Assembly: GCF_024323335.1 (NCBI RefSeq)
Contig: NC_066584.1
Location: 241,455,994 to 241,519,993, forward strand
DNA: 64,000 nt
Direction of reading: 5' to 3'
From: Lathyrus oleraceus
Lineage: Eukaryota; Streptophyta; Magnoliopsida; Fabales; Fabaceae
Made by a program: the position numbers and the translations under genes. The notes below the pieces were generated by a model. That model was not told the origin of the DNA, searched no databases, and was given only the letters and a program-made list of their open reading frames with translations. Positions 4,912-55,096 of this stretch are shown here, one piece after another; within the stretch, counting starts at the first letter, position 1, and the number at the start of each line of letters is the position of its first letter.

Positions 4912-7900
4912 GTTGGTTTCTAATCCCATTGAATGCAATGATCCTTCTCCTTATCCAAATTTTGAGTTCCCTGTGTTTGAGGCCGAGGAGGAAAGTCGTG
5001 AAGAAGTGAATGATGAACTGTCTCGTCTTCTTAAGCATGATGAAAGAATCATTCAGCCGTTCAAAGAGTAGATTAAGCTAGTCAACTTGGGTTCCGAGGA
5101 TGATGTGAAGGAAGTCAAGATTGGGTCTCGACTGTGTCCAGATGTCAAGAAGGGGGTTAATTGATCTTCTTCGAGAGTATTCAGATGTGTTTTCTTGGTC
5201 CTATCAAGACATGCCTGGTTTAGATTCTGATATTGTGGAGCATAGATTGTCGTTGAATCCAGAATGCCCGCCAGTCAAATAGAAATTGAGAAGAACGCAT
5301 CATGATATGGCAGTAAAGATCAAAGAAGAAGTGCAGAAGCAGAATGACGTCGGTTTCCTCGTGACCGCTGAGTATCTGCAATAGGTGACCAATATTGTGC
5401 CTGTGCCAAAGAGAGATGGAAAAATCTCCATGTGTGTTGACTATAGATATTTGAATAAAGCCAGTCGGAAAGATGATTTCCCTCTGCCACACATTGATAT
5501 GTTGGTAGACAATACTGCTAAATTCAAAGTCTTTTCGTTTATGGATGGATTTTCCGGATATAATCAGATCAAGATGGCACCCGAAGATATGGAGAAGACC
5601 TTATTCATTACACCTTGGGGAACATTCTGTTATAGAGTGATGTCTTTCGGTTTAAAGAATGTTGGTGCAACTTACCAAAGAGCAATGACTACTCTTTTTC
5701 ATGATATGATGCATAAAGAGATTAAAGTTTATGTTGATGACATGATTGCTAAATCGATTGATGAAGAGGAACATGTTGAGCATTTGTTGAAGCTATTCCA
5801 GCGTTTGAGGAAGTATAAACTCTGCTTGAATCCCAATAAGTGTACTTTTGGTGTTCGTTATGGTAAGTTGTTGGGCTTTATTGTCAGCGAGAAGGGTATT
5901 GAAGTTGATCCTGCCAAGGTCAAAGCAATACAAGAAATGCCTGCACCCAAAACTAAGAAGCAAGTCAGAGGTTTTCTCGATCGCTTGAATTATATCTCAA
6001 GAATTATTTCACACATGACTGCCACGTGTGCGCCTATATTCAAGCTGCTTCAGAAAGATCAGTCTTGTGATTGGACCGAAGACTGCCAGAAAGCTTTTGA
6101 TAGTATCAAAGAGTATTTGCTTGAACCTATGATTGTGTCTCCACCTGCTGAAGGAAGACCGTTGATTATGTATTTGACTGTGCTTGAAGATAGTATGGGT
6201 TGTGTTCTTGGTCAGCAAGATGAAACTGGAAAGAAAGAATTTGCGGTTTACTACCTCAGTAAGAAATTCACCGACTGTGAGACTCGGTATTCTATGCTTG
6301 AGAAAACTTGTTGCGCATTGGCTTGGGTTGCTAAGTGTCTGCGTTAGTATATGTTGAATCATACCACTTGGCTGATATCCAAAATGGATCCAATCAAGTA
6401 TATATTTGAGAAGCCTGCGTTAACTAGGAGGATTGCCCGTTGGCAGATGTTGTTATCAGAGTATGATATTGAATACCGATCTCAGAAAGCGATCAAGGGT
6501 AGTATCTTGGCTGACCATTAGGCTCACCAACCAATTGAAGATTATCAGTAAGTGCCGTATGATTTTCCTGATGAAGAGATCTTGTACTTGAAAATGAAAG
6601 ATTGTGATGAACCATTGCTTGAAGAAGGACTAGAACCTAGTTCCTGTTGGGGCATAGTATTTGATGAAGCTGTTAATCAATATGGTAATAGCATTGGGGC
6701 AGTGATCATTACTCCTCAAGGTACGCATTTTCCCTTTACAACTAGATTGACTTTCAAGTGTACAAACAATATGGCAGAATATGAAGCTTGCATTATGGGG
6801 CTCGAAGAGGCCATTGATCTCAGAATCAAGCATTTAGATGTCTTTGGAGATTCCACTTTGGTTGTGAATCAGATCAAAGGAGAATGGGAGACGAATCAAC
6901 CCGGTTTAATACCATATAGAGATTATGCGATGAGGATTTCAACTTTCTTTACAAAAGTTGAGTTTCATCATATCCCTCGAGATGAAAACCGGATGAAAGA
7001 TGCTCTTGTAATGTTGGCATCAATGATTATAGTGAAGTATTGGAATGAGGTTCCCAATTTTTCTGTGATGCGTCTTGATAGGCCAGCTCATGTATTTGTT
7101 GTTGAAGAAGTCAAAGACGAGAAGCCGTGGTATTACGAAATCAAGTGTTTCCTCCAAAGTTAGATTTACCCGTCTGGGGCATCTTTGAAAGATAAGAAGA
7201 ATTTGAGAAGATTATCCGGCAATTTCTACTTGAATGGTGATATACTGTACAAGAGAAACTTCAACATGGTTCTGCTCAGACGCGTGGATAGACACGAAGC
7301 AGACCTGTTGATGACTGAAGTGCATGAAGGTTCCTTTGGTACTCATTCCAATGGACCTGTAATCGCGAAGAAGATGTTCCGAGTAGGTTACTATTGGCTG
7401 ATAATGGAATCTGACTGTTGCAAGTTTGTGAAGAAATGCCACAAGTGTCAAATATATGCTGATAAGATTCATGTTCCTCCGACACTATTGAATGTTATTT
7501 CTTCCCCATGGCCCTTCTCCATGTGGCGAATTGATATGATTGGGATGATTGAGCTCAAAGCTTCGAATGGACATTGTTTCATTTTGGTGGCAATTGACTA
7601 CTTCACAAAATGGGTTGAAGTGGCATCATATGCAAATGTAACCAAGCAAGTCATTGTAAGGTTTATCAAGAATCAGATCATATGCTGTTATGGTGTGCCA
7701 AGTAAGATCATTATTGATAATGGATTGAACTTGAATAATAATATGGTGGAAGCTCTTTGCAAGGACTTCAAGATTGCACATCATAATTCTTCTCCCTACA
7801 GACCTAAGATGAATGGGGTTGTTGAAGCTGCGAATAAGAACATCAAGAAGATCATTCAGAAGATGGTTATGATGTATAAGGATTGGCATGAGATTCTCCC

Positions 7901-8375
7901 ATTTGCTTTGCACGGGTATTGTACATCTATCTGCACTTCAACGGGGGAAACCCCTTTCTATCTTGTTTATGGCATGGAAGCAGTGCTTCCCGTAGAGGTT
8001 GAGATTCCTTCATTGCATGTGCTCATGGAAGCCAAGTTGACTGAGGCTGAATGGTGTCAGACCAGGTTTGATCAGTTGAATTTAATTGAAGAGAAGAGAT
8101 TGACTGCCATGTGCCATGGTCAATTATATCAGCAAAGGGTGAAGAAAGCTTTTGATAAGAAGGTCAGACCTCGTGTGTTCAGAGAAGGTGACCTTGTGCT
8201 CAAGAGGATTCTATCTTTCAAACCAGATTCTAGGGGAAAATGGACTCCTAATTATGAAGGACCATATATTGTTAAGAGAGCCTTTTCATGCGGTGCATTG
8301 ATTCTTACAACTATGGATGGTGAAGAGTTCACTCGTCATGTGAACGCAGATGAAGTCAAGAAATACTTCGCCTAA
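4912..8375 (+). pseudogene. pol: Element A pol exon 2: RT, RNase H, archaeal-type RNase H, integrase; broken
   Basis: Domains in order. A linker (4912-5150) precedes RT with FPLPHIDMLVDNT, FMDGFSGYNQIKMAPEDMEK and the catalytic YVDD at about 5731. Then RNase H (GRPLIMYLTVLEDSMGCVLG ... YSMLEKTCCALAW). A second RNase H is at about 6640-7030, with AEYEACIMGLEEAI and FGDSTLVVNQIKG; its first catalytic turn reads FDEAV instead of FDGAV. Integrase has an H/C zinc-binding region (THSNGPVIAKK ... CHKCQIYAD) and D-D-E marks WRIDMIG, IIIDNG, NGVVEAANKN. It ends with a GPY-type module (PNYEGPYIV) and stops at 8375, with no chromodomain. Breaks: TAG stops near 5069, 5281, 5382, 6345, 6520 and 7161, TAA near 6549, and a one-base shift in a G run near 5150. 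Confidence 0.92.
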
Positions 8376-8394
8376 AAAAGAAAAGGACAACTCG

Positions 8395-8555
8395 CTAAGT
8401 TAGAAACCCGAAAGGGCGACTTAGGAAAAAATGAGTGTCTCGGTGGATTGAAAACCCGAAAAGGAGATCAAGGCAAAAATTAGAGATATAAAACAGAAAG
8501 AATTTCCCGATAAGTTGAGTATCCCACCCTGGGGAAACTTATGCAAAAATTAGGG
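8395..8555 (+). repeat. Tandem stem-loop array directly after the integrase stop, element A
   Basis: Three modules. (1) CTAAGTT (8395-8401) pairs with GACTTAG (8418-8424), enclosing CCC-GAAA-GGG. (2) GAT (8446-8448) pairs with ATC (8467-8469) around CCCGAAAAGG. (3) ATAAGTT (8510-8516) pairs with AACTTAT (8536-8542), enclosing CCCA-CCC-TGGG. Modules are joined by conserved linkers of the type GGCAAAAATTAGRGAT. Elements B and C have equivalent arrays at the same place with compensating stem changes. The stems are directly visible; a role as an RNA structure is inferred. Confidence 0.7.
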
Positions 8556-10034
8556 ATTATGGCAAGTAACTGCACTCTGCCGATTTTCCAGTATTGGAAA
8601 GATTTGTTGAGCACAAGGGTTGACGTCGATGCATCATCCCTGGAAGCGGCCAAAAGCACAGCGGACATCAAGAGTTGGTAGAAGGATTAGTGGTCAATTG
8701 TATTCAATGTAACCCTTTTCCATGTAAATTACCATTTTTCAACTTTGTAAAGATCTATGGAGGCTTGTCATTTTCAGACTACCATTCTATTAAATGAAGT
8801 TGAGCTTTTTACCCAATTATTTTCACTCTTATTTACTTCAGCCAATAGTTTTAAATTTTATTATGATCATTTTTGGAATTAAAATTTTAATCAAAATCAT
8901 TTTTCTTAAACATATAAAAGCAAGAATTTTTTCAAAGCAATTACATCAACAACATTTCGAAAAGCAGCAAGTCTCCAATGTGAAGCATCATGGGTTTCCT
9001 AAGTAGTTAACCCTTCGGGTATCCCTAGTCGAGTTTGTTGATCCAGTTCCCATACGGCGTGTTTGATCCCCAGTGGAGCTTTCGTACCTTTTCCCAGCTA
9101 AGTTGATGGATTCAGTACCCTGCGGAGTTGTACTTTATCCCCGACAGAGTTTCTGTATCCCCCTGCAGAGATTGTGTATTCTTCAGCAGGTTTGATTTTG
9201 GATCTTTAGCAGAGTAAGTTGATTTCCCTAGTAGATCGCGTTGGTTTCTCCACCAGTCGTCATCCGACTCGCTCCCAGTCAGAGTTTCCTCCTGGTTTCT
9301 GAGCAGCTATTTATGTTGTCCTCTGTATGGTTGTCTCCCATTTGATATGGTGTTGACCTAAAATTCCCCGCAGACTCGATAATGTTTCCTTTCCTCAGTG
9401 GATCTGCTCCTTCCCCAGTTAGAGTTGAGTCTTTGGGATGTTGATCTTCCTGTTCTCCGGCAGTTATCTCCCTTTTTGTGGATTGACCGAGGGTTGTACC
9501 GATGATTCAAATTTTGTGACACCTTTGTATCCTTTGTGATTGTTTTGTCAGCATAATCATCATATACACATATACATATACACTCATATAATTTCATAAT
9601 TGCATAGTTGCATCATCATATTTGCTGAATCATTGTCTGAGATTCTTATTCTCTGTTATGGCGGTACTTTATCCCCATACAAGTTTGATGTCTATTCTCT
9701 CTCAATTGTAGAAGGTCGGCCCCTTAAGCAGAAAGACTTTAACCTTTCTCCTTTCCCCACTGAGTTATTTCCTCGTGGATGACTATTGTTTTAGTTTCCT
9801 TCCCAGTTGATTATCTGGATGGAACCACTCCCCTTGAGATATATCCTCATTGGGTTGAGTCTTGATTGACCGTTTCTTTCTAGCTCTTTCCTAGATAGAT
9901 GCTTTGAGAGTTTATTGCCCAGTAACTGGTAATATTCTTCTTAATTGTAGTTTATTACTTCTTGCCCAATACACGACAAAAGTACCCCTGTTTTTCTCCT
10001 CAATAGAGTTCTCAGTGGATTCATTTTTCCAGGA
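8556..10034 (+). other. Element A 3' UTR, proximal part with degenerate TCCCCAG-type motifs
   Basis: No coding sequence. 8556-8800 is homologous to 57430-57690 of element C in reverse. From about 9000 the + strand carries a loose succession of pyrimidine-rich motifs such as TCCCCAGTGGAG (9067-9078), TCCCCGACAGAGT and TCCCCAGTTAGAGT (9412-9425), spaced roughly 25-60 bp apart. Small ORFs here are shadows of this low-complexity sequence. Confidence 0.6.
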
Positions 10035-10862
10035 AGTATATCCTTGATATGTTGATCCTAATCGGTGACAGATATCTTTCTATCCCGTGCCTGAGTCTAT
10101 CCTTGATATGTTCATCCTAACCGATGACGGATATTCTCATCTTTGGTATTCTACCCAGTAAAAAGGTAGTTGTAATCCCTATTTTATTCCCCAGAGAGTT
10201 AATCCTTGATATGTTCATCCTAATCGATGACAAGTTTCCTTCTCTTTGCGGTCTTCTACCCAGTAACCGATAGTTGTAAATCCTACTTTCCCTTTTGCAT
10301 AGTTTATCCTTGATATGTTCACTTTAATCAGTGATGGATACTCTCTCTTGGTATCCTATCCAGTAACTGATAGATGTAATTCCTATTTTCCCTCCTCAAC
10401 AGAGTTTATCCTTGATATGTTCATCCTAACCGGTGACGGATTTTCTCTTTGATGGTATTCTATCCAGCATTCGATAGATGTAATTCCTACTTTTTGCTCA
10501 GTGGGTTTATCCTTGATATGTTCATCTTAACCGATGACGGATATCCTCCTTGACATCCCAGGCAAGTCTATCCTTGATATGTTCATCTTAACCGATGACG
10601 GATTTTCTTCCCTATTGAGTTTATCCTTGATATGTTCATCCTAACCGATGACAGATACTCTCATCTTTGGTTTTCTGCCCAGTAACTAGTAGTTGTAAAT
10701 CCTATTTCCTGCAGTTTTCCCCAGCAAGGCTATTCTTACCCAGTAACCGGTAATGAATACCCTCATGGCGGTTCCCAGTGAGTCATCCTTGATATGCTCA
10801 TCCTAATCGATGACGGATGTCCTCTCTGTCAGATCTTTATTATCCCCTTGCCCAATAAAAGG
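10035..10862 (+). repeat. Tandem repeat array in the 3' UTR of element A
   Basis: About nine copies of a core like ATCCTTGATATGTTCATCC followed by TAAYCGATGACGGAT, in units of roughly 50-110 bp. Longer units also carry CTACCCAGTAACCGGTAG, an imperfect inverted repeat. The same core occurs in reverse in element C (55100-55900). Arrays in the 3' UTR of Ogre-type elements are known and have been proposed as seeds of satellite DNA. Element B is inserted in the last unit. Confidence 0.85.
10858..10862. repeat. Target site duplication of element B, left copy (aaagg)
   Basis: Five bases directly outside the left LTR, matching acagg at 30976-30980 with one mismatch. Five-base duplications are usual for Ty3/gypsy insertions. 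Confidence 0.7.
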
Positions 10863-13800
10863 TGTCGCAACGCGAAAAACAACTGGCGAAAAAAGAAACA
10901 GAAGAGTCGCCACCGTTCGTTATTTATCCCAAAGGAGGGAAAGGAAACGATCGAAGAAAACCTGAAGAGAAGGAAAAGACAAGGTCTCGCAACCAAATAT
11001 AGGGTTCGGGAGTCGATTATACGAAGGGAAGGTATTAGCACCCCTACGCATCCGTAGTACTCTACGGGATCCACTCTTGTTGTTCTAATCTAAAGGGTGT
11101 AGGTAAATCTAAAGTACTATCTGCTAAAAGAAGGTCGAAAGAGAATGAAAATGACTCGCAAGGATGTCGCATCCACTGCCTACATATCTCACCTGAGTAT
11201 GAGAATCAGAGTCTTCGTAACTCGGCTACCTATGGGTTAAAGAGAAGTGTGCTCGCTAAGACATCGCGTCTTATGCCTACGTATCTCATATGGAATGAGA
11301 ATTAGAGCAAAACGTAGTTCAGCTAACTACGGGAATAAGGATCTCGATTGCAACTAGGGAAAGAGAAAGGGAAGGTCTCGATCGCAACGAGGGCGAGAGA
11401 AAAGAATCCCAACAAGGGCGAAAGCAAGCGAGGATTAGTTGTTAGTCGTCAGTCAAACTCGGCAAGACATCGCATATCGTGCCTACATATCTCATCTGGA
11501 ATGAGAATCAGAGTTGTCGTAGTTCGACTAACTAGGGGTTAAGGATTGCCATCTGAACATGGACTTACAAAAGGAAGACACCAGCTGTGTCAAAGGAAAA
11601 TGGGCAATGTGTTCAACGTCCTAGCAGTAGGTGTCGCAGCTAGCTGAATCGAGTCTTAGGCAGTTACCTCTTTGCAATAGAACGGACTGGCATGCCACAA
11701 GATCAGAGACACACGGAAGGTCTAAAAGTGGGGAAGCTCTGCCCTAGTGTTGTCATGCAATGTGGACCTACGTGTTAGGATTTACAGAGGGAAAACATCT
11801 ACCTAATGTTAGCATGCAAAGAATAAGGGACTTCTACCTATGTTATCATACAAAGGGTTCTACCTAATGGGTGCTACCTAAACGGAACAAGAGTCGACGG
11901 ATGGAGCAAGGAGAGGAGCCACAGATAAGGGTAGATGGCGATGCCTGAGGCGATCGACTTACGGGTAGATGGCGATGCATGAAGCAATCGACTTACAAAG
12001 GGATGGATGAATACGTGTTGGTTCTGTTAAGTTTTTAAAATGATTACTCGACGTTGGATCGAGCTTTTGATCTTGTTTTGAAATGATTATCGGATGTTCG
12101 TTTTAATTCTTGTATTAATAGATGAATAAAGAATGAAAGAATAAATATTATACACTTCATGGGAGAGGGGTACATTTGTTATGAATGGGGATTGTTCATG
12201 GCAATCAAACAATGAGAATATATGCCTCATACATCATACAAGTAGGCAACAGTTATCAAAAAATAGATAAGTAAACAGGTGCATAATCAGGTCAAAGAAT
12301 CAAAGAATAAAATAATAGAGCATTAAATAAGGTATGGGAAGTATGAACATGTTCAATAATCAAACAATAGTAGCATGGATGAAAGAAACAAGCATAACAG
12401 CTAATAGATGAATCAGACAAATGAAAAGAAATGCACAAAAGGGTTCACTGAATAATTTAATTAGGAAATGAGGTAAGGACCAAATAAAATCAAGATGAAA
12501 GGCCTCTAATACATGGCATATGAGATGAACAAGGGAGGATCAAAAATCTCTTCAATTTCCATAAGCAATCCCTAAGTTAAACATCAATCATAAAGAAGTC
12601 AATTGAAAATTCAAGTCAACTTAAAAAATATCAAATAAATAGCAAATTAATCAAGAAAATTATGAAAAATTAAACTAAATGAGGTGGGGTCAGGACATCA
12701 TCATCCCACAAAACGATTTTAAAAATAATGAAAATTGGTGCATGAATTAAATGAAATAAAACACAAGTCAAACTAAAAGTCAACCAACCAAACTAGGTCA
12801 AAGATAAATCCAAAATAAATAAAAAATGGGAAATAAAATTCCAAGAAAAGGTCAGGTTGACCATGTGACAGTGGTTAACCTTCATCCCAGAAATCAAAAT
12901 CTAAAAATAATTTTAAGTCATGAAAATAAAATCAATAAAAAATGTGTGTTAAAATGAACCACTTGGAATAAACAATTAAAATAAAATATCAATATTAAAT
13001 AAATACGAAAATAAAAATCAAATAAAATTAAATAAGACATCAAGAAATGTGGAAAATATTTTTGGGGATTTTTATGAATAAAGAAAATATTTTTTATTAG
13101 TTAAAATCAAAACAGAATAAAAATAATAATTAAAAAAAGAAGATGAAAATGGGAAATGGATCAGCTGATGGGCCAGGAAATGGAGGTGTGAAGAGCGAAT
13201 GGCACAGGCATATGATCCAAACACTAATAATCCAGCGTGACACATTTAAATAACATTTTAATTTAAAAATCATGTCAACATTGTATCAATTGGTCAAGTT
13301 ATTTTAAGTGACTAAAAGACAAAATAATTATGCACGACCAGGATTAAAACACACGCATTGGATCTAACGGTTCACAAGGTGACACGTATTCATCTTCTTC
13401 CACAAACCAAAACCCTAATGCCATAACCATGCAGCCACGTGAAAATGCAGTGAGTTTTTCCAATCTTCCAATCAATAATACAAGCACTATAATGCACCAA
13501 ATGACATGAAATAAAAACCAAAATTCAAGTACAAAATGTGTAGATTATCATGGTATCCTTGTTTGAGTAAAATGATGGCTTGATCATGGAGAAAAGTTGA
13601 CCATAAGATGTCAACATGGCCACGGATATGAACAACAAGCAACAGCATAAACCAATAACATAGACATTGCCTCATGTTGAGGGCTTCACAAGTACATGAT
13701 TGGCATGGTAAACATGATAAGCATGGTAAGCAAGCATAAAAATAGCATGGTGAAAAGTAATGATAATAAGCATAGTTATATTAATACACGGCCATGGAAG

Positions 13801-15621
13801 AGAAGTAAGAGGGCTATCTAGTGGATGTTAGGTCCACTGCCCCTTGATTGTGAAGACAATGGAAGTGGAGTGGTGCTTCCTTCTTGGTGCTTCAACTTCA
13901 CTTCAAGAACTTGGTGAGAAAAGGAAGCTGACTTGTGATGCTCTTGGCCTTGCTTGCAACGAAAATCCAATGCCTCCTTCTAGGTTTAGGGTTTTCAGCT
14001 TTTAAATATGATGATCAAATGTTCTAATGGGATTTGAAATAAGTGATGTCCATGAGAATAAAAGTGTGAAGTGAGGTGTAGAAAGAGGGCATGTGAAATG
14101 TGTTATTTTGGGCCAAACTTAAGTGAATGGATATCCAATGCATGGCCAAAAGAGGTAGCAAAAACATGGGATGGTTTGCAGCATAACTTGGCAAGCAAGA
14201 AATCCATTCCAAGGTGGTGACTTTGAGGCCATGTAACTTGATGATCAAGTCACCAAATGATGAAATAATGCAAACAGTAGAAAGATCTCATGGAGTATGT
14301 CATCTTTCATGTTGAGCACAAGTTGAAATGATGAATGGAAGAAGGTGAAAAATGGTCTCAAAGTTCAGGTCTCACCATGCAAAACTGATTGGGCCAGTTT
14401 GGCCTAAAATCTGCCTAGAAAATCAAGTCATAATGCCCATTTTAGGTGAATGTATCTCTCAAACCATGGATCCAAATGAGATGATTTCAAAAGGAGGTGA
14501 AAGGGGACATGGCAAGGTACAATTGTTGTGAAGAAAGCATTTTCAAATGATGTCTTGAAGTGCAAGAAAACTGGCCAAGAAGTCTTGATAAATTATGAAG
14601 ATCTTGAGACTTAGAAATTTTTCTAAGTGTCCTAAAAATATGTCTCACTTTGACTAAGCATAACTTTCTCAATCTTGATCCAAATGGAGCAAACTTTATA
14701 TATTTAGAAAGCTTGGAACAAGAGGAAAAACTTTCATGTTGGAGAAATCTTCAAATGGAGCTTTTATCTTGACTGAAAATGGGCTTAAAGAGAGTGCAAC
14801 AATCATGAAAACTTGCCCTAAATGGAAAGTCAACCATTTCCAAATTAAGTAACTTTTCCAATTCCTGATTAAATGAGGAATCCATGATCCAACCTTGATC
14901 AAATTTCCAATGTAGGATCCCCTAGGTATGGATTTTGAGATTCCACTCTCAAAATGTCAGGAGTTGACTTTTCTGGCCCCACAATTGACTTTTCCCAAAC
15001 TGTCTGATTCCCGATTCCAATGATCAATTGAAGCACCTCTGGCTCAAATAAAGAGCTGATTTTTTGTATGTAGACCCTTGGGGACATATGGAGGGCCATG
15101 GAAAAGAGTTTCACCCAAAGAATCAGAAATAAACTAATTTTATACCAAACCCTAGTTTAGGGCAAAAATGATTGGGAACTGATTCCACTGATTGCCAATG
15201 GATCTTTCTGAGATAATTGTGAATCTTCCTAGGCATGATGCCTGTCTAATCATGACATGGATGAGCCATTCTAATTCCAATCAAACATTGCCTGTTGCAA
15301 GTAGCCATGAAAACCCTAGTTCCCTGATTAAATCCAGATGAACACTCTGATAGTTCTGAATCCTTCACCGATGAACTGAGGACTATAATAAGATACCTAG
15401 AGCCCCCTGAGACCCTTGAGACTTCTATACATAGAGAATGAAGTCCAATTCTCAATCTTGCTTTGTGTGGGATCCTTCTGTTAAGGAGTGATCAATCAAA
15501 ACCTGATTCCCAAGTCACTAATGCAGTATGCAATGAGTATGACCTAGTATGATGCTAATGAAGTGTGAAACTTAATCCCATGCTTCCAGGAAAAATGAAG
15601 GGTAAATTTTGGGGTATTACA
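10863..15621 (-). repeat. Element B 3' LTR
   Basis: Direct repeat of 26215-30975. It runs on the - strand from TGTAATACCCC at 15621 to GCGACA at 10863. No gene inside; the small ORFs have exact counterparts in the other LTR and are shadows. Contains telobox-like AAACCCTAA on the + strand near 13410 and on the - strand near 13981-13995, and a TATA-like CTATGTATAG at 15425-15434. A PBS-like TGGCGACTCT lies at 10903-10912 inside the LTR 3' end. Confidence 0.92.
15425..15434 (-). promoter_or_regulatory. Possible TATA box in LTR B
   Basis: CTATGTATAG on the - strand, about 190 bp from the LTR start. The other LTR carries the related TATGTATAC at about 30778-30787. The sequence is weaker than the clear TATAAATA boxes in LTRs A, C and E, and its position is unlike theirs (about 1.1-1.5 kb into the LTR), so this is tentative. 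Confidence 0.25.
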
Positions 15622-15633: not shown

Positions 15634-17705
15634 CAATCAACTGGAGACCCGAAATGAAGATAGCAACGGCTTTTGCAATTTCGAGGTATCAAGGGATTGA
15701 ATACGATAAAAGCCCGGAAATTTACACTGAAGTGAAAGTGAAAAATGAAGTAATAATGCCTGTCAGGATCGACAGAGAGGTAGTCTTGAAAGAAGAACCC
15801 GTCTGGTACAGTGAGAGTCGGTCTGAACACCGAAAAAAGAATGTTAGCCTGAATACCAAAATAAATGGTAACATAGAAATAACCATGGCCCGAATGCCGC
15901 TCATCAATCTGAATACTGGAAATGACTTCGATCTGAACATCGGAAGATACTAGATTATCAAACATTAGTCTGAATACCGGAAAACTGGCCTGAATGCCAC
16001 TTCGGTCTGAATACCGGAAAACTAGCCTGAATGCCACAAGTTGCATCGACCTGAACGTCAGAAACTTCTTCGATCTGAACATCGGAAAATTGGCCTGAAT
16101 GCCACTTCGGTCTGAATACCGGGAAATTGGCCTGAGTGCCACAAGTTGCATCGACCTGAACATCGGAAACTTCTTCGATTTGAACATCGGAAAACTGGCC
16201 CGAATGCCACTTCGGTCTGAATACCGAGAAATTGGCCTGAGTGCCACAAGTTGCATCGACCTGAACGTCAGAAACTTCTTCGATCTGAACATCGGAAAAC
16301 TGGCCTGAATGCCACAAGTTGCTTCGACCTGAACGTCGGAAACTTCTTCAATCTGAACATCGGAAAGTTGGCCTGAATGCCACTTCGGTCTGAATACCGG
16401 AAACTTTCATGCCTGTCAGCATTGACAGAAATAGGGAAAATGATAATTGAGGAGGCACGTGGGCCAACGCCCCCTGCTGGGAATAATAAAGAATAAGTCA
16501 TGAACAAACTTCAGTCTGAGTACTGGAAACAAACTTCTGGCTTATCACTTGGGATACCGAGAATGTCTTATGCTTTACATGCGTATGTTTGAATTTTTCA
16601 ATGGCGTAATGCTCCATGAAAATGGAAATGCTACGCGATTTGGGAGGATGCAATGTGATATGATTCTACATGCAGGGATGTGAAATGCTAGGTTAGAGAC
16701 AACGCCAAGCCGAGGTAGGGAATTCTGTTGGGGAAGTGATCACAATCTTCTGGACCCTGGCAAGGCTGTTGGAGGTACACAACACAATGAACTCTATGGG
16801 GGAAATGACCGGCCACGCGGGGTTCTGGCAATAATAATAATAATACCGAGACTCTGACTGGGGAGAGAATGGTACTGAAAGCTTGCTGCTGAGGAAGGCG
16901 ACAGTGGTTCTGGAAACCAAAATCTGCGAGAGAGACGACTCAGTAGGGGAAGAAAACACCGATACGGTACCGAGATTCTGCTTTAAGGAAAGAGACCACG
17001 GATCTAGCGTCGAGATCATCGATTTGGCATCGAACTCTGAGGAGTAGCCGCTTGGACCAACTCCGTTGGGGAGTGTATAGCCTGAAACAAACACTTGGGG
17101 AAGTACAGTAGCGAGAACCTGCTGGGGATTGAAGAATCCAACGCTTGGACCAATTTTGCAGGGATAAGATACCAAATACCAACTGTTGAGGAAAAACATC
17201 CGCGATCATATGCTGGGAACATTAAGGATATGCCTCGAGTGTACCTGTTCTAAATAGACGATCCAAAACACTTAAAATTTACAGCAATTTTAAATATTTA
17301 TTGAGCATGTACCTGTAAAGCACTTATGTTTCATGATGCAATGTTTATCAAAAATTCGGACGTCATTTTTGCAAACAAAACAGTAAAATGGAAATGAACA
17401 CAGAGATATACTGAATAACATGATTTTATTGATTGAATGGCCTCTGAATAGGCATTTACATCAGGAAGCAATCCCTGGAAAGAGGTAATTGCACAAAAGA
17501 TAAAAATAGAAATTAATCTAATGGCAATGTGAAATGGATCTCTATCGGGTTCCAATTCTGCTATGACTCGCTCGTCTTCCAGATCCTCCAAATGATCAGC
17601 TTTCTGAAAAAGGTGATTGGACTGTTTCCTATCCTTCAAAAGTTTCCAATTATTGACACGAGATGAGATTCAGAACTACTCAGAACGCAGTCATTCGCTC
17701 AATCC
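15634..17705 (-). other. Element B 3' UTR
   Basis: Non-coding. Includes the minisatellite at 15830-16420. From about 16700 to 17230 it holds a degenerate series of CTGGGGA-type motifs on the + strand, such as ACTCTGACTGGGGA (16851-16864) and ACTCCGTTGGGGA (17060-17072). These are near-copies of this element's own PBS, so the element's sense RNA carries the complement. Also an AAT microsatellite at about 16830-16845. ORFs in this stretch follow the repeats and are not supported. Confidence 0.65.
15830..16420 (-). repeat. Minisatellite in the 3' UTR of element B
   Basis: Many copies of a short unit, read on the + strand as CTTCGATCTGAACATCGGAA or GGTCTGAATACCGGAAA, alternating with CTGGCCTGAATGCCAC. 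These build a higher-order unit of about 120 bp with ACAAGTTGCATCGACCTGAA. Individual units contain small inverted repeats (CGGTctgaaTACCG; CGATctgaaCATCG). The sequence is unrelated to the arrays of elements A and C, consistent with the hypervariable 3' UTR of this group. Confidence 0.88.
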
Positions 17706-17906
17706 CTAACTTTTGCCTGGATCGCCCTTTCGGGTTTTCAATCCACCGGGATACCCATTTTTTCCTAAGTTGCCTTTTCAGGTTTTTAACTTACCGGGTG
17801 TACAATCTTTTCATTTTTAATCCCTAACTTTTGCCTGGACCTTTTTCATTTTCTTGGTTCGCCGGGATGCCCATTTTTTGCCTGGACTATTCTTTTTATC
17901 GTCCAG
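17706..17906 (-). repeat. Tandem stem-loop array directly after the integrase stop, element B
   Basis: Four modules on the - strand. CTGGAC/GTCCAG (17901-17906 with 17882-17887). A weaker GAACC/GGTCC. TAAGTT/AACTTA (17788-17793 with 17766-17771) enclosing CCT-GAAA-AGG. GGAT/ATCC (17741-17744 with 17719-17722) enclosing CCC-GAAA-GGG. Linkers read AGGCAAAAGTTAGGGAT and CCCGGT. Corresponds to the arrays of A and C but with one more module. Confidence 0.7.
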
Positions 17907-17916
17907 CGGGTCTATT

Positions 17917-20900
17917 TTATGTGAAGTATTTTTTAACTGCGTCTGAGTTCACAGGGGAAGTGAAGTCTTCACCATCCATAGTTGCGAGCATTAAGGCTCT
18001 GTTATCAAAGATCTTGGTGACAATATATGGTCCATCATAGTTAGGAGTCCACTTTCCCCTGTGATCTGTCTGAGGAGGAAGGATCCTTTTCAACACCAAA
18101 TCTCCGACTTGGAAGCATCGAAGACGCACTTTCTGATCAAAGGCTCTCTTCATCCGACTTTGATACAACTGCCCATGACAAATGGCTGCCATTCGTTTCT
18201 CTTTGATAAGACTCAACTCAATGAACCTTGTCTGAATCCATTCAGCTTCGTCTAACTTGACATCCAGCAGGACTCTTAGAGAAGGAATCTCCACTTCAAC
18301 AGGTAGGACTGCTTCCATACCATACACAAGGGAGTAAGGGGTTTCCCTGGTCGATGTACGTACTAAAGTACGGTACCCATGCAAGGCGAAGGGTAGCATT
18401 TCATGCCAATCTATGTACGTAACGACCATCTTCTGCACAATCTTCTTTATGTTCTTATTTGCTGCCTCAACAACACCATTCATCTTAGGACGATAAGGGG
18501 AAGAATTGTGATGTTGAATGTTGAAGTTCTTGCACAAATCCTTCATCATTTTGTTATTGAGATTAGAACCATTATCAGTAATGATTCTTTCGGGAATCCC
18601 ATAACGACAAATGATTTCTTTCTTAATGAATCGGGCAACCACATGTCTGGTGTCCTTCGCAAATGACGCTGCTTCGACCCACTTAGTGAAATAGTCAATG
18701 GCAACAAGGATGAAGCGATGCCCATTGGAAGCAGTCGGCTCAATCTTTCCAATCATATCAATGCCCCACATAGCAAACGGCCACGACGAAGACATCACAT
18801 TCAGAGGATTTGGCGGCACATGCACCTTATCAGCATAAATTTGGCATTTATGACACTTCCAAGCATATTTGAAACAATCAGATTCCATGGTCATCCAGTA
18901 ATAACCCGCTCTCAACAATTTCTTAGCCATTCCATGTCCGCCGGCATGTGTACCGAAGGAGCCTTCATGAACTTCCTGCATTAACATGTCCGCTTCGTGT
19001 CTATCCACGCATCTGAGCAAAACCATGTCAAAGTTCCTCTTATACAGCACATCGTCTTTGTTCAAGAAGAAACTGCTTGCCAATCTTCTCAAAGTCTTTC
19101 TATCATTGTTGGATGCCCCTGCAGGGTACTCTTGATTCTTCAGAAAGCACTTGATTGCGTGATACCAGGGCTTGTCATCAACTACCAGTTCAGCGGCAAA
19201 CACATACGCGGCCCTATCAAGGCGCATAACATCGATCCTGGGAGCATAGTTCCACCGAGTCACTTTGATCATGGAGGATAAAGTAGCAAGAGCATCTGCC
19301 ATCTGGTTCTCATCACGAGGTATATGATACAGCTTTATTGTTGTGAAGAAAGTCAACAGTCTTCTCGTGTAATCTCTGTAGGGGACCAGATTAGGCTAGA
19401 GAGTATTCCAATCACCATTCACTTGATTGATCACTGGAGCTGAATCTCCGAAGATGTCCAGAGTCTTGATTCTCAAATCAATGGCTTGCTCAATACCCAG
19501 GATAAAAGCTTCATACTCAGCTTCATTATTGGTGCACTCGAAAGTCAGACGAGCGGTGAAAGGCATGTGGGCACCTTTCGGAGTGGTAATGACAACACCA
19601 ATTCCACTTCCTTTGGCATTGACGGCCCCATCAAACATTAAAGTCCACTTTTCATCTGGATCAGGTCCCTCTTCAACAACTAGCTCTTCACAGTCTTTCA
19701 TCTTGAGAAACATGATGTCTTCATCTGGAAAATCAAACTTCATCGACTCATAATCATCAATCGGCTGCTGAGCAAGATAGTCTGACAGAATACTCCCTTT
19801 GATGGCTTTCTGGGATGTATACTGGATGTCGTACTCTGTCAGTACCATCTGCCAACGAGCAACCCTTCCGGTGAGAGCTGGCTTCTCAAATATATACTTG
19901 ACTGGATCCATTTTGGAGATCAGTAAGGTTGTGTGAGTCAGCATGTATTGTCTCAAATGCTTAGCAGCCCATGCAAGTGCACAACATGTCTTTTCAAGCA
20001 TTGAGTATCTCCACTCGCAATCTGTGAATTTTTTACTCAGGTAGTAGATGTCATGCTCTTTCCTACCTGTCTCGTCTTATTGACCGAGAAAACAACCCAT
20101 GGAGTTATCAAGTACTGTCAAATACATAATCAGCGGTCTCCCTGGGACGGGAGGCATAAGAATAGGAGGATTCTGCAAATACTCTTTTATTTTCCCGAAA
20201 GCCCTTTGGCAATCATCATTCCACCTGATAGCCTGAACTTTTCTTAATAATTTGAATATTGGCTCACACGTGGATGTTAGGTAAGAGATGAACCTTGTAA
20301 TGTAGTTCAACCTCCCTAAGAAACCACAGACTTGTTTTTCTGTTCTTGGCTCAGGCATCTCTTGTATCGCTTTCACTTTTGCGGGATCCACCTCAATCCC
20401 TTTTTCACTAATAATAAAACCTAACAATTTTCCAGATCTCACCCCGAAAGTACACTTGTTCGGATTAAGCCTTAGCTTGAATTTCCTCAAACGCTCAAAC
20501 AGTTTCTGCAAATTCACCAAATGTTCTTCTTCCGTCTGAGATTTAGCAATCATATCATCAACATAAACCTCGATTTCATGATGAATCATATCGTGGAAAA
20601 GAGTTACCATAGCTCGTTGATATGTTGCCCCAGCATTTTTCAGACCAAACAGCATCACCTTGTAGCAGAAGGTTCCCCATGGGGTTATGAAAGTTGTCTT
20701 CTCCATGTCTTCCGGTGCCATCTTAATTTGATTATAGCCAGAAAAACCATCCATGAAGGAGAATACCGAGAACTGAGCCGTGTTATCCACCAAAACGTCG
20801 ATGTGAGGTAATGGGAAATCATCTTTAGGACTAGCTCTGTTCAGATCCCGGTAATCAACACACATCCGTACCTTTCCATCCTTCTTAGGTACTGGAACGA

Positions 20901-26214: not shown

Positions 26215-29200
26215 TGCCGCAACTAGGAAAACAATAGGCGAAAAAAGAAAACAGAAGAGTCGCCACCGTTCGTTATTTATCCCAAAGAAGGGAAAGGAAA
26301 CGATCGAAGAAAACCTGAAGAGAAGGAAAAGACAAGGTCTCACAACCAAATCTAGGGGTTCGGGAGTCGATTATACGAAGGGAAGGTATTAGCACCCCTA
26401 CGCATCCGTAATACTCTACAGGATCCACTCTTGTTGTTCTAATCTAACGGGTGTAGGTAAATCTAAAGTACTATCTGCTAAAAGAAGGTCGAAAGAGAAT
26501 GAAAATGAATCGCAAGGATGTCGCGTCCACTGCCTACGTATCTCACCTGAGTATGAGAATCAGAGTCTTCGTAGCTCGGCTACCTATGGGTTAAAGAGAA
26601 GTGTGCTCGCTAAGACATCGCGTCTTATGCCTACGTATCTCATATGGAATGAGAATTAGAGCAAAACGTAGTTCAGCTAACTACGGGAATAAGGATCTCG
26701 ATTGCAACTAGGGCAAGAGAAAGGGAAGGTCTCGATCGCAACGAGGGCGAGAGAAAAGAATCGCAACAAGGGCAAAAGCAAGCGAGGATTAGTTGTTAGT
26801 CGTCAGTCAAACTCGGCAAGACATCGCATCTCGTGCCTACGTATCTCATCTGGAATGAGAATCAGAGTTGTCGTAGTTCGACTAACTAGGGGTTAAGGAT
26901 TGCCATCTGAACATGGACTTACAAAAGGAAGACACCAGTTGTGTCAAAGGAAAATGGGCAATGTGTTCAACGTTCTAGCAGTAGGTGTCACAGCTCGCTG
27001 AATCGAGTCTTAGGCAGTTACTCTTTGCAATAGAATGGACTGGCATGCCACAAGATCGGAGATGCACGGAAGGTCTAAAAGTGGGGAAGCTCTGCCCTAG
27101 TGTTGTCATGCAATGTGGACCTATGTGTTAGGATTTACAGAGGGAAAACATCTACCTAATGTTAGCATGCAAAGAATAAGGGACTTCTACCTATGTTATC
27201 ATACAAAGGGTTCTACCTAATGAGTGCTACCTAAACGGAACAAGAGTCGACGGATGGAGCAAGGAGAGGAGCCACGAATAAGGGTAGATGGCGATGCCTA
27301 AGGCGATCTACTTACGGGTAGATGGCGATGCATGAAGTAATCGACTTGCAAATGGATGGATGAATACGTGCTGGTTCTGTTAAGTTTTGAAAATGATTAC
27401 TCGACGTTGGATCGAGCTTTTGATCTTGTTTTGAAATGATCATCGGATATTCGTTTTAATTCTTGTATTAATAGATGAATAAAGAATGAAAGAATAAATA
27501 TTAAACACTTCATGGGAGAGGGGTACATTTGTTATGAATGGGGATTGTCCATGGCAATCAAACAATGAGAATATATGCCTCATACATCACACAAGTAGGC
27601 AACAGTTATCAAACAATAGATAAGTAAACAGGTGCATAATCAGGTCAAAGAATGAAAGAATGAAATAATATAGCATTAAATAAGGTATGGGAAGTATGAA
27701 CATGTTAAATAATCAAACAATAGAAGCATGGATGAAAGAAACAAGCATAACAGCTAATAGATGAATCAGACAGATGAAAAGAAATGCACAAAAGGGTTCA
27801 CTGAATAATTTAATCAGGAAATGAGGTAAGGACCAAATAAAATCAAGATGAAAGGCCTCTAATACATGGCATATGAGATGAACAAGGGATGATCAAAAGA
27901 TCTCTTCAATTGCCATAAGCAATCCCTAAGTTAAACATCGATCATAAAGAAGTCAACTCAAAATTCAATTCAATTTAAAAAATATCAAATAAATAGCAAA
28001 TTAATCAATAAAATTATGAAAAATTAAACTAAATGAGATGGGGTCAGGACATCATCATCCCCCCAAAAGATTTTAAAAATAATGAAAATTGGTGCATGAA
28101 TTAAATGAAATAAAACACAAGTCAAACTAAAAGTCAACCAACCAAACTAGGTCAAAGATAAATCCAAAATAAATAAAAAATGGGAAATAAAATTCCAAGA
28201 AAAGGTCAGGTTTACCATGGGACAGTGGTCAACCTTCATCCCAAAAATCAAAAGCTAAAAATAATTTTAAGTCATGAAAATAAAATCAATAAAAAAATGT
28301 GTGTTAAAATGAACCACTTGGAATAAACAATTAAAATAAAATATCAATATTAAATAAATACGAAAATAAAAATTAAATAAAATTAAATAAGAAATCAAGA
28401 AATGTGGAAAATGTTTTTGGGGATTTTTATGAATAAAGAAAATATTTTTTATTAGTTAAAATCAAAACAGAATAAAAATAAGAATTAAAAAAAGAAATGA
28501 AAACGGGAAATGGATCAGCTGATGGGCCAAGAAATGGAGGTGTGAATAGCGAATGGCACAGGCCATGATCCAAACACTAATAATCCAGCGTGACACATTT
28601 AAATAACGTTTTAATTTAAAAATCATGTCAACATTGTATCAATTGGTCAAGTTATTTTAAGTGACTAAAAGACAAAATAGTTATGCACGGCCAGGATTAA
28701 AACACACGCATTGAATCTAACGGTTCACAAGGTGACACGTATTCATCTTCTTCCACAAACCAAAACCCTAATGCCATAACCATGCAGCCACGTGAAAATG
28801 CAGTGAGTTTTTCCAATCGTCCAATCAATAATACAAGCACTATAATGCACCAAATGACATGAAATAAAAACCAAAATTCAAGTACAAAATGTGTAGATTA
28901 TCATGGTATCCTTGTTTGAGTAAAATGATGGCTTGATCATGGAGAAAAGTTGACCATAAGATGTCAACATGGCCACGGATATGAACAACAAGCAACAGCA
29001 TAAACCAATAACATAGACATTGCCTCATGTTGAGAGCTTCACAAGTACATGATTGGCATGGTAAACATGATGAGCATGGTAAGCAAGCATAAAAATAGCA
29101 TGGTGAAAAGTAATGATAATAAGCATAGATATATTAATACACGGCCATGGAAGAGAAGTAAGAGGGTTACCTAGTGGATGTTAGGTCCACTGCCCCTTGA

Positions 29201-30975
29201 TTGTGAAGACAATGGAAGTGAAGTGGTGCTTCCTTCTTGGTGCTTCAACTTCACTTCAAGAACTTGGTGAGAAAAGGAAGCTGACTTGTGATGCTCTTGG
29301 CCTTGCTTGCAACGAAAATCCAATGCCTCCTTCTAGGTTTAGGGTTTTCAGCTTTTAAATATGATGATCAAATGTTCTAATGGGCTTTGAAATAAGTGAT
29401 GTCCATGAGAATAAAAGTGTGAAGTGAGGTGTAGAAAGAGGGCATGTGAAATGTGTTATTTTGGGCCAAACTTAAGTGAATGGATATCCAATACATGGCC
29501 AAAAGAGGTAGCAAAAACGTGGGCTGGTTTGCAGCATAACTTGGCAAGCAAGAAATCCATTCCAAGGTGGTGACTTTGAGGCCATGTAACTTGATGATCA
29601 AGTCACCAAATGATGAAATAATGCAAACAGTAGAAAGATCTCATGGAGTATGTCATCTTTCATTTTGAGCACAAGTTAAAATGATGAATGGAAGAAGGTG
29701 AAAAATGGTCTCAAAGTTCAGGTCTCACCATGCAAAACTGATTGGGCCAGTTTGGCCTAAAATCTGCCTAGAAAATACAGTCGTGGTGCCCACTTTAGGT
29801 GAATGTATCTCTCAAACCATGGATCTAAATGAGATGATTCCAAAAGAAGGTGAAAGGGGACATGGCAAGGTACAATTGTTGTGAAGAAAGCATTTTCAAA
29901 TGATGTCTTGAAGTGCAAGAAAACTGGCCAAGAAGTCTTGATAAATTATGAAGATCTTGAGACTTAGAAAATTTTCTAAGTGTCCTAAAAATATGTCTCA
30001 CTTTGACTAAGCATAACTTTCTCAATCTTGATCCAAATGGAGCAAACTTTATATATTTAGAAAGCTTGGAACAAGAGGAACAACTTTCATGTTGGAGAAA
30101 GTTTCAAATGGAGCTTTTATCTTGATGGAAAATGGGCTTAAAGTGAGTGCAACAATCATGAAAACTTGCCCTAAATGGAAAGTCAACCATTTCCAAATTA
30201 AGTAACTTTTCCAATTCCTGATTAAATGATGAATCCATGATCCAACCTTGATCAAATTTCACATGTAGGCTCCCCTAGGTATGGATTTTGAGATTCCACT
30301 CTCAAAATGTCAGGAGTTGACTTTTCTGGGCCCACAATTGACTTTTCCCAAACTGTCTGATTCCCGATTCCAATGATCAATTGAAGCACCTCTGGCTCAA
30401 ATAAAGAGCTGATTTTTTGTATGTAGACCCTCGTGGACATATGGAGGGCCATGGAAAAGAGTTTCACCCAAAGAATCAGAAATAAACTGATTTTATACCA
30501 AACCCTAGTTTAGGGCAAAAATGATCGGGAACTGATTGCACTGATTGCCAATGGATCTTTCTGAGATAATTGTGAATCTTCCTAGGCCAAGATGCCTCTC
30601 TAATCATGACATGGATGAGCCCTTATAATTCCAACCAAACATTTCCTGTTGCAAGTAGCCATGAAAACCCTAGTTCCCTGATTAAATCCAGATGAACACT
30701 CTGATAGTTTTGAATCCTTCACCAATGAACTGAGGACTATAATAAGATACCTGGAGCCTCCTGAGATCCTTGAGGCTTGTATACATAGAGAATAAAGTCC
30801 AATTCTCAATATTGCTTTGTGTGGGCTCCTTCTGTTAAGGAGTGATCAATCAAAACCTGATTCCCAAGTCACTAATGCAGTATGCAATGAGTATGACCTA
30901 GTATGATGCTATTGAAGTGTGAAACATAATCCCATGCTTCCAGGAAAAATGAAGGGTAAATTTTGGGGTATTACA
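26215..30975 (-). repeat. Element B 5' LTR
   Basis: Direct repeat of 10863-15621. It begins on the - strand with TGTAATACCCC at 30975 and ends with TTGCGGCA at 26215. It acts as promoter and polyadenylation region in such elements. A PBS-like TGGCGACTCT is present at 26256-26265, inside the LTR and about 44 bp from the real PBS. No gene inside. Confidence 0.92.
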
Positions 30976-30980: not shown

Positions 30981-31171
30981 TAGGTGATAATAGATTTTTT
31001 CTCCTCCTACATTGAAGTTTATTTCTTCCCAGTTGAGTTGAGTGCGCATTTCCTTAGTAAAATCGCTTTTCCTGCGTGATCCAAGTACTTCAGTTTTATT
31101 CTAATCTACTCGTTTCCCCTGCAGATGTTTTGTTTCCCCAGATGAGTCTTTCCATTTTGTATGAAATTCCT

Positions 31172-31387
31172 CTAGTCCCCCAGCAGTTTTAAGTCGTAGC
31201 CTGGCCTACGCATAAATTTTTCCCCGCCAGATTCTTTGTCTCCCCAGTGAGTTTTCCTTATGGAATGCATTATACTCCTACGGACTTTCGGTCTCTCTGA
31301 TTTCTTTTCCTCTGTGGAAATATTTCCCCACAGATAATTTGCTTCTACATTCATACCATATGCATCATGAGGTCTCTTAGGGACCAA
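31172..31387 (-). CDS. Possible antisense ORF before the 3' LTR of element A
   Basis: Reads VPKRPHDAYGMNVEANYL, then MHSIRKTHWGDKESGG and RRPGYDLK. Element C has a similar reading on its own antisense strand at 46490-46708 (VPKRPYDAYDMNV, MHSIRKTHWEYRDSRG). Antisense extra ORFs between pol and the 3' LTR are known in some Tat elements. The similarity may only reflect DNA homology between related elements. The C copy has a stop before RRPGYDLK and other changes, so coding is doubtful. No known domain recognised. Confidence 0.25.
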   Translation of the reverse strand: MVPKRPHDAYGMNVEANYLWGNISTEEKKSERPKVRRSIMHSIRKTHWGDKESGGEKFMRRPGYDLKLLGD

Positions 31388-31475
31388 AATTTGTTTCTAT
31401 ATGTTGTTATTTAAGCCCATTCCACTGAGTCGAGCCAAAGATTTGAACCTTCACCTCCTTAGTTAGAATGTCCTT

Positions 31476-31488
31476 AAATAGGGGCAGC
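31476..31488 (+). promoter_or_regulatory. Polypurine tract of element A
   Basis: AAATAGGGGCAGC immediately before TGTAAGACC of the 3' LTR. Same tract as in elements B and C. Confidence 0.75.
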
Positions 31489-34400: not shown

Positions 34401-35352
34401 TGAACCTGTGACTTGTGGAATTCATCTGTTACACGAGCTTATTTGAAGAAGATCATGAAGTGGCTAAGCTTGGATGTGGCTATCTTTATTTGATGTCTTG
34501 CTCTTCAAGATTGATATAATTGTGCATTGTGTGTTGCTTGATTCTAAATGTCCAAGGGAATTTGGGTTTCTATATGACATTCCTGTCTATTGAATTGCTA
34601 CCCATTGGTCAGATCTTTTCAACTCTTAACTTTTAATTTTGTGCATAGGATTAGTCTCTTCATCTCCTCCCCATTTATTTAATTTAAAAACCTCTCCCTC
34701 CTTTAAAAATCTTCTTTCTTTGAGCTAGTTTTTCTCTAAACTTTGACCACTTTACAAACTAGAGACTTTGGCCTTATGCCATTGCATTTTCAAACTTCTT
34801 TTCTTAATCAAACTTGTAAATAGACTTAATTATACTTGACTTAAACTTTCAAAAGGCCAAAAAGAACTAACACATTCAAACCATTTTCAGGCCTTTGTGT
34901 CTTTCAAACTAAATTTTTGTTAAAAGCAATGCATCCACTTTGAAATTTGTATCACGAACTACGAGGTTTTGATCCCTTATTTTTATGTTGGTACGTAGGT
35001 ACAAGTCTGAAGGTCTTGTCAAACACAAAAATATAAATAATGAATTCTTTTCTCATCCCCTCATTCTATTTGTTTATAAACATCACTTTTGTACAAAATA
35101 CATATGCGCACAAGAAAAGGCTCCCTAGGAGTACCTATGACACTTTGGGTGCTAACACCTTCCCTCTGTGTAACCAACCCCCTTACCTGTAACCTCTGAC
35201 ATTTTATTAGTTTTGATTTGAAAACTTCTTACTTTTGGGTTTTGTTCGTACTTTTCCCTTTTCCCTTGGAAACAATAAAAGCGCGGCGGCGACTCTGGTT
35301 TTATTGATGTCTTACTTATCCATAGCTTGATGATCATGAATTTACCGCTACA
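31489..35352 (+). repeat. Element A 3' LTR
   Basis: Starts TGTAAGACCTC and ends CCGCTACA (3864 bp). Homologous in reverse to the LTR of element C at both ends and at the TATA box. Shorter than LTR C by about 930 bp. TATA box at 32983-32990. A PBS-like GGCGACTCT at 35288-35296 lies inside the LTR, about 56 bp from its end. No gene inside; ORFs such as 32447-32677 are unsupported. Directly followed by the RT fragment of D. Confidence 0.88.
32983..32990 (+). promoter_or_regulatory. TATA box in LTR A
   Basis: TATAAATA in the context GCTATAAATACAGGG, about 1.5 kb into the LTR. LTR C has TATAAATA at the same offset, which supports it as the LTR core promoter. Confidence 0.65.
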
Positions 35353-46439: not shown

Positions 46440-46452
46440 GCTACCCCTATTT
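46440..46452 (-). promoter_or_regulatory. Polypurine tract of element C
   Basis: AAATAGGGGTAGC directly before TGTAAGACC of the 3' LTR; one base different from that of A. Confidence 0.75.
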
Positions 46453-52488: not shown

Positions 52489-52502
52489 TGCTAGTGGGAG
52501 AT

Positions 52503-55091: not shown

Positions 55092-55096
55092 GACTG
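55092..55096. repeat. Target site duplication of copia element F, right copy (gactg)
   Basis: Identical to 46915-46919. Confidence 0.9.

Follow-up and report, generated by a model that had tools for sequence, protein, structure and literature searches.

Tandem hairpin modules directly behind pol in three Lathyrus oleraceus retrotransposons: a candidate cis-acting RNA element of the Ogre/Tat lineage

Cis-acting RNA directly past a stop codon of a retroelement transcript is described for Rous sarcoma virus (RSV; PMC6277124), and the plant long terminal repeat (LTR) retrotransposon Evade (Copia93) has a fold-back RNA, the triple-helix element ENE, in the spacer that separates pol from its downstream LTR (PMC12501189). 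Ogre/Tat elements, characterized by an archaeal-type RNase H between RNase H and integrase and by a gag-pro/pol intron (PMC6317226), carry tandem units downstream of pol as well, namely the hypervariable repeats of their 3' untranslated regions (UTRs), which are sources of satellites (PMC7004042); tandem arrays in Tat 3' UTRs also figure in PMC6317226. Ogre-type elements fill a large share of some legume genomes, reaching 45% in Lathyrus sativus (PMC7004042). Here, we analysed a stretch of 64,000 nucleotides (nt) from Lathyrus oleraceus (NC_066584.1, positions 241,455,994 to 241,519,993; hereafter the window), in which three Ty3/gypsy elements, A (plus strand), B and C (both minus strand), end pol with integrase and continue into a row of hairpin modules. 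We propose, with a probability of roughly 0.55, that this array is a cis-acting structured element of Ogre/Tat-type sense genomic RNA, consisting of three or four tandem modules directly past the pol stop. To our knowledge, little is known about how the RNA of plant LTR retrotransposons is marked, exported, stabilized and packaged.

The integrase ends that precede the arrays are located as follows.

7164..8375, plus strand: integrase end of pol in element A; stop codon at 8373-8375; PF00665 and PF17921
17917..19395, minus strand: integrase end of pol in element B; stop codon at 17917-17919; PF00665 and PF17921
57867-57869, minus strand: integrase stop of element C, which was placed by alignment to A and B

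With a Ty3/gypsy pol, a terminal integrase, long LTRs and a long 3' non-coding region, the host element fits an Ogre/Tat LTR retrotransposon. Domain searches identified rve and H2C2 in both A and B, and reverse transcriptase/RNase H in A; the fragment of element C, scanned against Pfam, matched no family. The LTRs of B measure about 4.76 kb (10863-15621 and 26215-30975) and are 96.9% identical, as in Ogre-type elements, and the non-coding 3' stretches behind pol extend over 2.3-2.8 kb in the window's elements. The integrase of A terminates in VKKYFA, an ending shared by several of the 20 homologues inspected, and PF13456 is present in many of the 120 integrase homologues listed.

There are three modules in A, four in B and three in C, each of 43-52 nt. 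A sequence-only reading of the window had given these counts together with stems, loops and linkers, and all of them were recovered when the sequence was read again, as were the pairs it quoted (CTAAGTT/GACTTAG; CCC-GAAA-GGG versus CCT-GAAA-AGG versus CCT-GAAA-GGG; the double change of the last module between A and C). It had placed the start of the array about 20 bp past the stop; the array does begin close behind the stop, at an actual distance of 5-14 nt, the first module of B being 5 nt away. The ten modules are listed below with their outer (P1), middle (P2) and apical (P3) stems.

8390-8436, plus strand: module a1; P1 ACTC/GAGT, P2 TAAGTT/GACTTA, P3 CCC-GAAA-GGG, short linker
8438-8486, plus strand: module a2; P1 TCTC/GAGA plus an outer G.U, P2 TGGATT/GATCAA with one mismatch, P3 with a C.A mismatch, long linker
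8505-8556, plus strand: module a3; P1 TCCC/GGGA, P2 TAAGTT/AACTTA, a different apical hairpin, long linker
17869-17911, minus strand: module b1; P1 ACCC/GGGC, P2 TGGAC/GTCCA, open apical loop without the GAAA hairpin; missed by the module scan
17821-17867, minus strand: module b2; P1 TCCC/GGGA, P2 with 4 of 6 pairs, without the GAAA hairpin
17753-17799, minus strand: module b3, orthologue of a1 and c1; P1 ACCC/GGGT, P2 TAAGTT/AACTTA, P3 CCT-GAAA-AGG
17703-17751, minus strand: module b4, orthologue of a2 and c2; P1 TCCC/GGGA, P2 TGGATT/GATCCA, P3 CCC-GAAA-GGG
57807-57853, minus strand: module c1; P1 ACTC/GAGC, P2 TAAGTT/GGCTTA, P3 CCT-GAAA-GGG
57757-57805, minus strand: module c2; P1 TCTC/GAGA plus an outer G-C, P2 TGGATT/GATCAA with one mismatch, P3 CCT-GAAA-GGG
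57687-57738, minus strand: module c3, orthologue of a3; P1 TCCC/GGGA, P2 TAGATT/AATCTA, two compensatory pairs relative to a3

Every module is a nested hairpin in which P1 encloses P2 and a one-sided A-rich internal loop. P1, with pairings such as ACTC/GAGT, TCTC/GAGA, TCCC/GGGA and ACCC/GGGT (YCYC/GRGR type), closes all ten modules and had escaped the sequence-only reading, which saw P2, P3 and the linker. P1 and P2 are separated by two bases on the 5' side and by a linker, of either the GGCAAAAATTA or the GGAAAAAAT type, on the 3' side. P2 has six positions (e.g. TAAGTT/AACTTA, TGGATT/GATCCA, TAGATT/AATCTA, TGGAC/GTCCA), and the position just outside it, which gave rise to the 7-base arms quoted before, is paired in four modules and G.G in the other six. 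The apical hairpin P3, CCY-GAAA-RGG, occurs in six modules (a1, a2, b3, b4, c1 and c2; imperfect in a2), so the GAAA loop claimed earlier stands for these six; the apical part of a3 and c3 is a different hairpin, and that of b1 and b2 is an open A-rich loop. All ten share P1, P2 and a large A-rich internal loop on one side, the strand of which is kept in sequence throughout. Pairs are broken in a2 (C.A in P3), in P2 of a2 and c2 (G.A), in P1 of c1 and b1 (A.C), at the inner end of P2 in b1 (G.A) and at two positions in P2 of b2. The 5' arm of b3 reads CGGTAAGTT in B, which we take to be a near-perfect 5' splice-site consensus and which is not retained in A or C.

Comparison of the 3' UTR stretches of A and B (2487 and 2295 nt) yielded a sole match at E 0.001, a 98-nt stretch over modules 1-2 with 85.7% identity. 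This identity (84/98) exceeds that at the adjacent integrase third codon positions (98/190; Fisher p 4e-9) and about equals that at the second codon positions (163/190). Given that Tat elements often carry tandem repeats behind pol (PMC7004042), the array might be one more short repeat of this sort with incidental inverted repeats, and the window does contain such repeats of about 100 bp in the 3' UTRs (A 10029-10818, C 55170-55903 and B 15969-16406), of the kind described as Ogre satellite sources. We give this explanation little credence, because Tat repeats are called hypervariable and diverge rapidly between families, whereas the array is the only part of the A and B 3' UTRs that still matches, and because its arms change in concert.

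The modules are also more numerous and more clustered than in shuffled sequence. Allowing at most three mismatches, the linker pattern matched nine places in the whole window, of which seven lie in the arrays; 1.21 matches were expected, and none of 100 shuffles reached nine. A scan of both strands for P1, P2 and linker combined found 13 places, i.e. nine of the ten modules and four scattered others, whereas 100 shuffles averaged 4.25 and never exceeded 10. More than two such modules never fell within 200 nt in 200 shuffles, while A, B and C each show three in the scan.

Concerted change was first assessed within the window by a re-pairing test, in which each 5' arm was matched with the 3' arms of other modules in 20000 permutations. 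With P1 defined as four pairs, 38 of 40 cells pair within modules, a value reached by a single re-pairing; for P2, 55 of 60 cells do so (2/20000). After removal of identical rows, the values were 30/32 for P1 (7/20000) and 44/48 for P2 (16/20000), and when P1 was redefined to comprise three pairs, 91 of the 20000 re-pairings reached the observed count; with five pairs, 34 did so. Since the modules fall into classes and matching within modules could be inherited, orthologous modules (a1-b3-c1, a2-b4-c2 and a3-c3) were compared with 20000 simulations that placed the same number and kind of changes randomly. Here, five compensatory pairs were found where 1.13 or 1.34 were expected (a count reached in 31 and 64 of the 20000 simulations), with four disruptive changes versus 9.6-9.8 and 68 or 67 pairs retained versus 56-57 (0/20000); the flanking position outside P2, A-U in a3 but G.G in c3 through changes on both sides, was not counted as a pair. 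In an alignment of eight of the ten modules, restricted to P2 and P3, 95.8% of cells are paired. Ten cells are changed on both sides versus 4.4 in shuffles, and the covariation score is 0.508 versus 0.361, with its peak at slide 0; neither value was reached in 500 shuffles.

The array is not confined to A, B and C, a restriction that the sequence-only reading had named as fatal to its proposal: modules occur in related elements. These other copies were reached through proteins that look like spurious antisense open reading frames from plant contigs, using a profile of the arrays' antisense translation as query. The search initially gave two proteins and later 106, the initial two among them; E is ≤0.001 for 82 of the 106, and two records (P0152 and P0155) are named Medicago truncatula. 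Regular expressions located at least one module string in 99 of the 106 proteins, and many have two or three modules. At E 0.01, the end of the integrase is matched by 28 of the 106 proteins, each of which has its best match in antisense orientation; these proteins read from the array into the integrase, and the place of the array is thus conserved too. Directly behind the last module, A (8561-8574) and C (57669-57682) have GGCAAGTAACTGCA in common, and several antisense peptide hits suggest a similar stretch in other copies. No DNA relatives of the integrase were found in viral, prokaryote, phage or plasmid DNA collections. A strict motif scan of viral contigs gave no match and a looser pattern gave three, of which L001 and L003 were set aside, their surroundings looking like unrelated viral DNA; the motif also matched in two bacterial contigs among prokaryote genome contigs. 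Protein P0026, a plant-type Tat integrase filed under Salmonella enterica in NCBI, presumably reflects plant contamination of an assembly.

Base pairs were then decoded from the peptides. The main antisense frame contains a few codon positions at which the sense base is determined for both partners of a pair; the other positions are ambiguous and were omitted from the counts. Pairs are numbered from the internal loop outward in P1, from the outer end in P2 and toward the loop in P3. We dropped 10 of 162 module strings because their type was unclear, as well as 7 of 44 short-linker strings that were misregistered; the unique decoded modules number 76 with a long and 37 with a short linker, and one of these 37 (P0185), also misregistered, was removed for near-neighbour ranking. 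Pair P1-4 gave the clearest result, with 71 paired and 5 unpaired long-linker modules (shuffle means 61.2 and 14.8; 0/4000) and 25 paired and 9 unpaired short-linker modules (14.3 and 16.7; 0/4000). An excess of pairing was also seen at P3-3 (57 vs 2 long-linker, 55/4000; 18 vs 2 short-linker, 0/4000), at long-linker P2-4 (71 vs 3, 52/4000) and P1-1 (54 vs 7, 19/4000), and at short-linker P2-1 (33 vs 4, shuffles 26.8 and 10.2, 0/4000), where 22 modules have U-A and 10 have C-G. At short-linker P2-4 (9 vs 1), the unpaired count was below all 4000 shuffles and the paired count showed no excess (3252/4000). Pairs P2-1 long-linker, P1-3 short-linker and P1-5 showed no excess either; P1-5 (25 paired and 19 unpaired vs 25.2 and 17.7 in shuffles) and short-linker P1-1 (26 and 7 vs 22.6 and 6.8) were omitted from the later counts. 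The second antisense frame, which was not a query, gave 14 paired, no unpaired and 6 ambiguous of 20 modules at P2-2 (4 and 11 of 2000 shuffles), with 11 A-U and 3 G-C; no excess appeared at the other pairs of this frame or in the third frame.

When all 5' and 3' sites were paired with one another, four of the six predicted pairs ranked 1, 3, 5 and 6 of 195 in long-linker modules and four of six ranked 3, 5, 6 and 7 of 203 in short-linker modules. Between near-neighbour modules, predicted pairs ranked 1, 2, 3 and 6 of 172 with the long linker and 1 and 3 of 129 with the short linker, for which four pairs were rankable; in these rankings, P3 sites lie within the search words and near-neighbour pairs reuse modules. 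After thinning to 85% clusters (41 long and 20 short), P1-4 holds (2 and 0 of 4000), and short-linker P3-3 (27/4000), P2-4 (56) and P2-1 (143) hold more weakly. At 75% (18 long and 11 short), only P1-4 is clear, with 12/4000 for the long linker and 23 or 188 of 4000 for the short one. Compensatory change is therefore above chance by these shuffle tests, and weaker after thinning. The earlier claim of selection on RNA structure is supported by the compensatory changes and the decoded covariation, but its qualification 'rather than sequence' is wrong, because all ten modules preserve the sequence of the A-rich internal-loop strand.

Arms that differ between modules yet match within them could also be maintained in DNA without any selection on RNA, through quasipalindrome correction by gene conversion or template switching, and illegitimate recombination or abnormal strand transfer has been proposed as the source of repeats in these elements (PMC7004042). 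Such correction treats G.T and A.C alike, however, and the decoded mismatches are uneven, with 42 G-U/U-G versus 14 A-C/C-A on the sense strand (p 2e-4) and 24 others. With the dropped rows included, the counts are 45 versus 18 (p 9e-4), and at 85% clustering 27 versus 10 (p 0.008). The linker, moreover, is conserved though non-palindromic, and we consider correction at the DNA level very improbable. Since G-U is tolerated only if the sense RNA is selected, whereas antisense RNA prefers A-C, the excess of G-U favours the sense RNA as the selected molecule, though not decisively. Conservation of a small peptide encoded across the array on either strand might mimic structure, given that the antisense frames are often open and that a sense frame of B is open across b3 and b4 (36 amino acids, 17683-17790). 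The modules of the hits, however, fall in three antisense frames (134, 29 and 23 places), the matching sense frame is interrupted by stops inside modules in A and C, and the differences among A, B and C have no clear three-base rhythm (3/4/7, 4/5/2 and 4/5/7), so that this explanation is hardly credible.

Several results weigh against a selected RNA structure. The folding energy of the whole arrays is not unusual (z -1.47, -0.58 and -0.73), and folding the full region to minimum energy preserves only some modules; the evidence for structure thus rests on how the bases change. In the eight-module alignment, neither the pairs with a double change (4; 52/500 shuffles) nor further pair types (9; 497/500) are in excess. 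The hits were selected by similarity to the arrays, with base identities decoded from the amino acids of antisense translations, and the covariation tests are shuffle and near-neighbour controls that ignore kinship, none of them tree-aware. The remaining predicted pairs rank low, both among all sites (26 and 112 of 195; 20 and 38 of 203) and between near neighbours (13 and 166 of 172; 17 and 49 of 129). Long-linker P3-3 (463/4000), P2-4 (766) and P1-1 (346) fail at 85% clustering; at 75%, short-linker P3-3 is weak (108/4000), P2-4, P2-1 and P1-1 are lost, and the excess of G-U fades (13 vs 8, p 0.38). Finally, all the evidence concerns sequence and structure, and none touches function directly.

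With its anatomy, conservation and place established, the array probably helps the element RNA do its job through its structure. In each module, two or three short helices would stack around the large asymmetric A-rich internal loop of conserved sequence, and in a1, a2 and their orthologues a GAAA (GNRA-type) tetraloop would form the cap. The A-rich loops are predicted protein-binding sites, several of which in a row may act as a multivalent platform. The part that is read is probably the A-rich internal loop, since all ten modules retain the linker strand even though their helices drift and their apical parts have been exchanged. Its likeliest user may be the element's own Gag, selecting full-length RNA for the particle, a possibility that we place below even odds; the next candidate would be a host protein that binds the RNA and influences its stability or export.

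An array that recruits a host protein to shield a transcript with a long 3' UTR from nonsense-mediated decay (NMD) or deadenylation is, in our judgement, unlikely. It would suit a position directly behind the stop codon of an RNA with more than 2 kb of non-coding 3' region and has precedents in the RSV element past the gag stop, which recruits PTBP1 (PMC6277124), and in the structured spacer element that stabilizes Evade RNA in Arabidopsis (PMC12501189). In turnip crinkle virus, by contrast, an unstructured stretch past the stop protected the RNA and a stable hairpin placed there abolished protection, although a readthrough structure past another stop codon did protect in that study (PMC6277124); structure alone seems to fit poorly as an NMD shield. 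Opposed U-rich tracts, as in an ENE, are lacking, with no run of at least four U over the initial 200 nt of the stretches from A, B and C or in the ten modules, which makes a triple helix of the Evade type unlikely. A role in nuclear export, by which intron-containing or unspliced Ogre RNA would leave the nucleus, appears quite improbable: hairpins with large internal loops downstream of pol resemble the constitutive transport elements of simple retroviruses, but the array should sit in spliced and unspliced RNA alike, and no site for an export factor is known in it, though none was looked for.

Beyond the cis-acting element that we propose, a more specific and rather doubtful reading is that the array serves as the signal by which the genomic RNA of the Ogre/Tat lineage is recognized, with A-rich-loop hairpins forming a multivalent row behind pol that varies in copy number and is conserved among distant members of the lineage. 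If so, it would constitute an RNA family so far without a name, in elements that account for much of some legume genomes. Rfam gave no match at gathering score in the whole window; at E up to 1, with A and B searched, A had one weak antisense match (14.3 bits vs a gathering score of 55.2) and B had none. A structured array just past the pol stop is likewise not described in any title or abstract among the open-licence papers that the literature searches listed, in agreement with the sequence-only reading, which knew of no such element. As a conserved and covarying feature at a fixed place, the array offers a handle, both as a covariance model for annotation and as bait for its binding protein, and it allows the conserved start of the 3' UTR to be told from the hypervariable repeats.

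Further features of the window concern the elements themselves. The integrase frame of C has an in-frame stop in the 57915-57917 region, 15 codons ahead of its end, and this copy is therefore broken. Given that the LTRs of B start where the similarity between the 3' UTRs of A and C stops, B may have inserted into A. A Ty1/copia-type gag-pol open reading frame (49470-51338) lies amid several near-identical repeat copies of about 1.3 kb (46920-55092), as if LTRs had been tandemly duplicated. Two long diverged repeats (73-76%) form an inverted pair at 31031-35352 and 41642-46909, one of which adjoins a stretch resembling the pol of A, B and C (35356-36072).

Among known systems, retroviral packaging signals, with their GNRA-type hairpins, and constitutive transport elements present loops to proteins through serial hairpins on genomic RNA, as the array would; packaging signals are located mostly in the 5' leader, unlike the array behind pol. 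The ENE of Evade differs in its repeated U-rich internal loops, which clamp the poly(A) tail (PMC12501189), where the loops of the array are A-rich. The stability element of RSV is polypyrimidine-rich and acts through PTBP1 (PMC6277124), whereas the array displays A-rich loops in repeated hairpins. From the hypervariable repeats of the same Tat/Ogre 3' UTRs it is distinguished by short covarying modules right past the stop that are conserved between A and B. The array is best called an apparently undescribed case of a known kind, the cis-acting structured RNA of retrotransposons.
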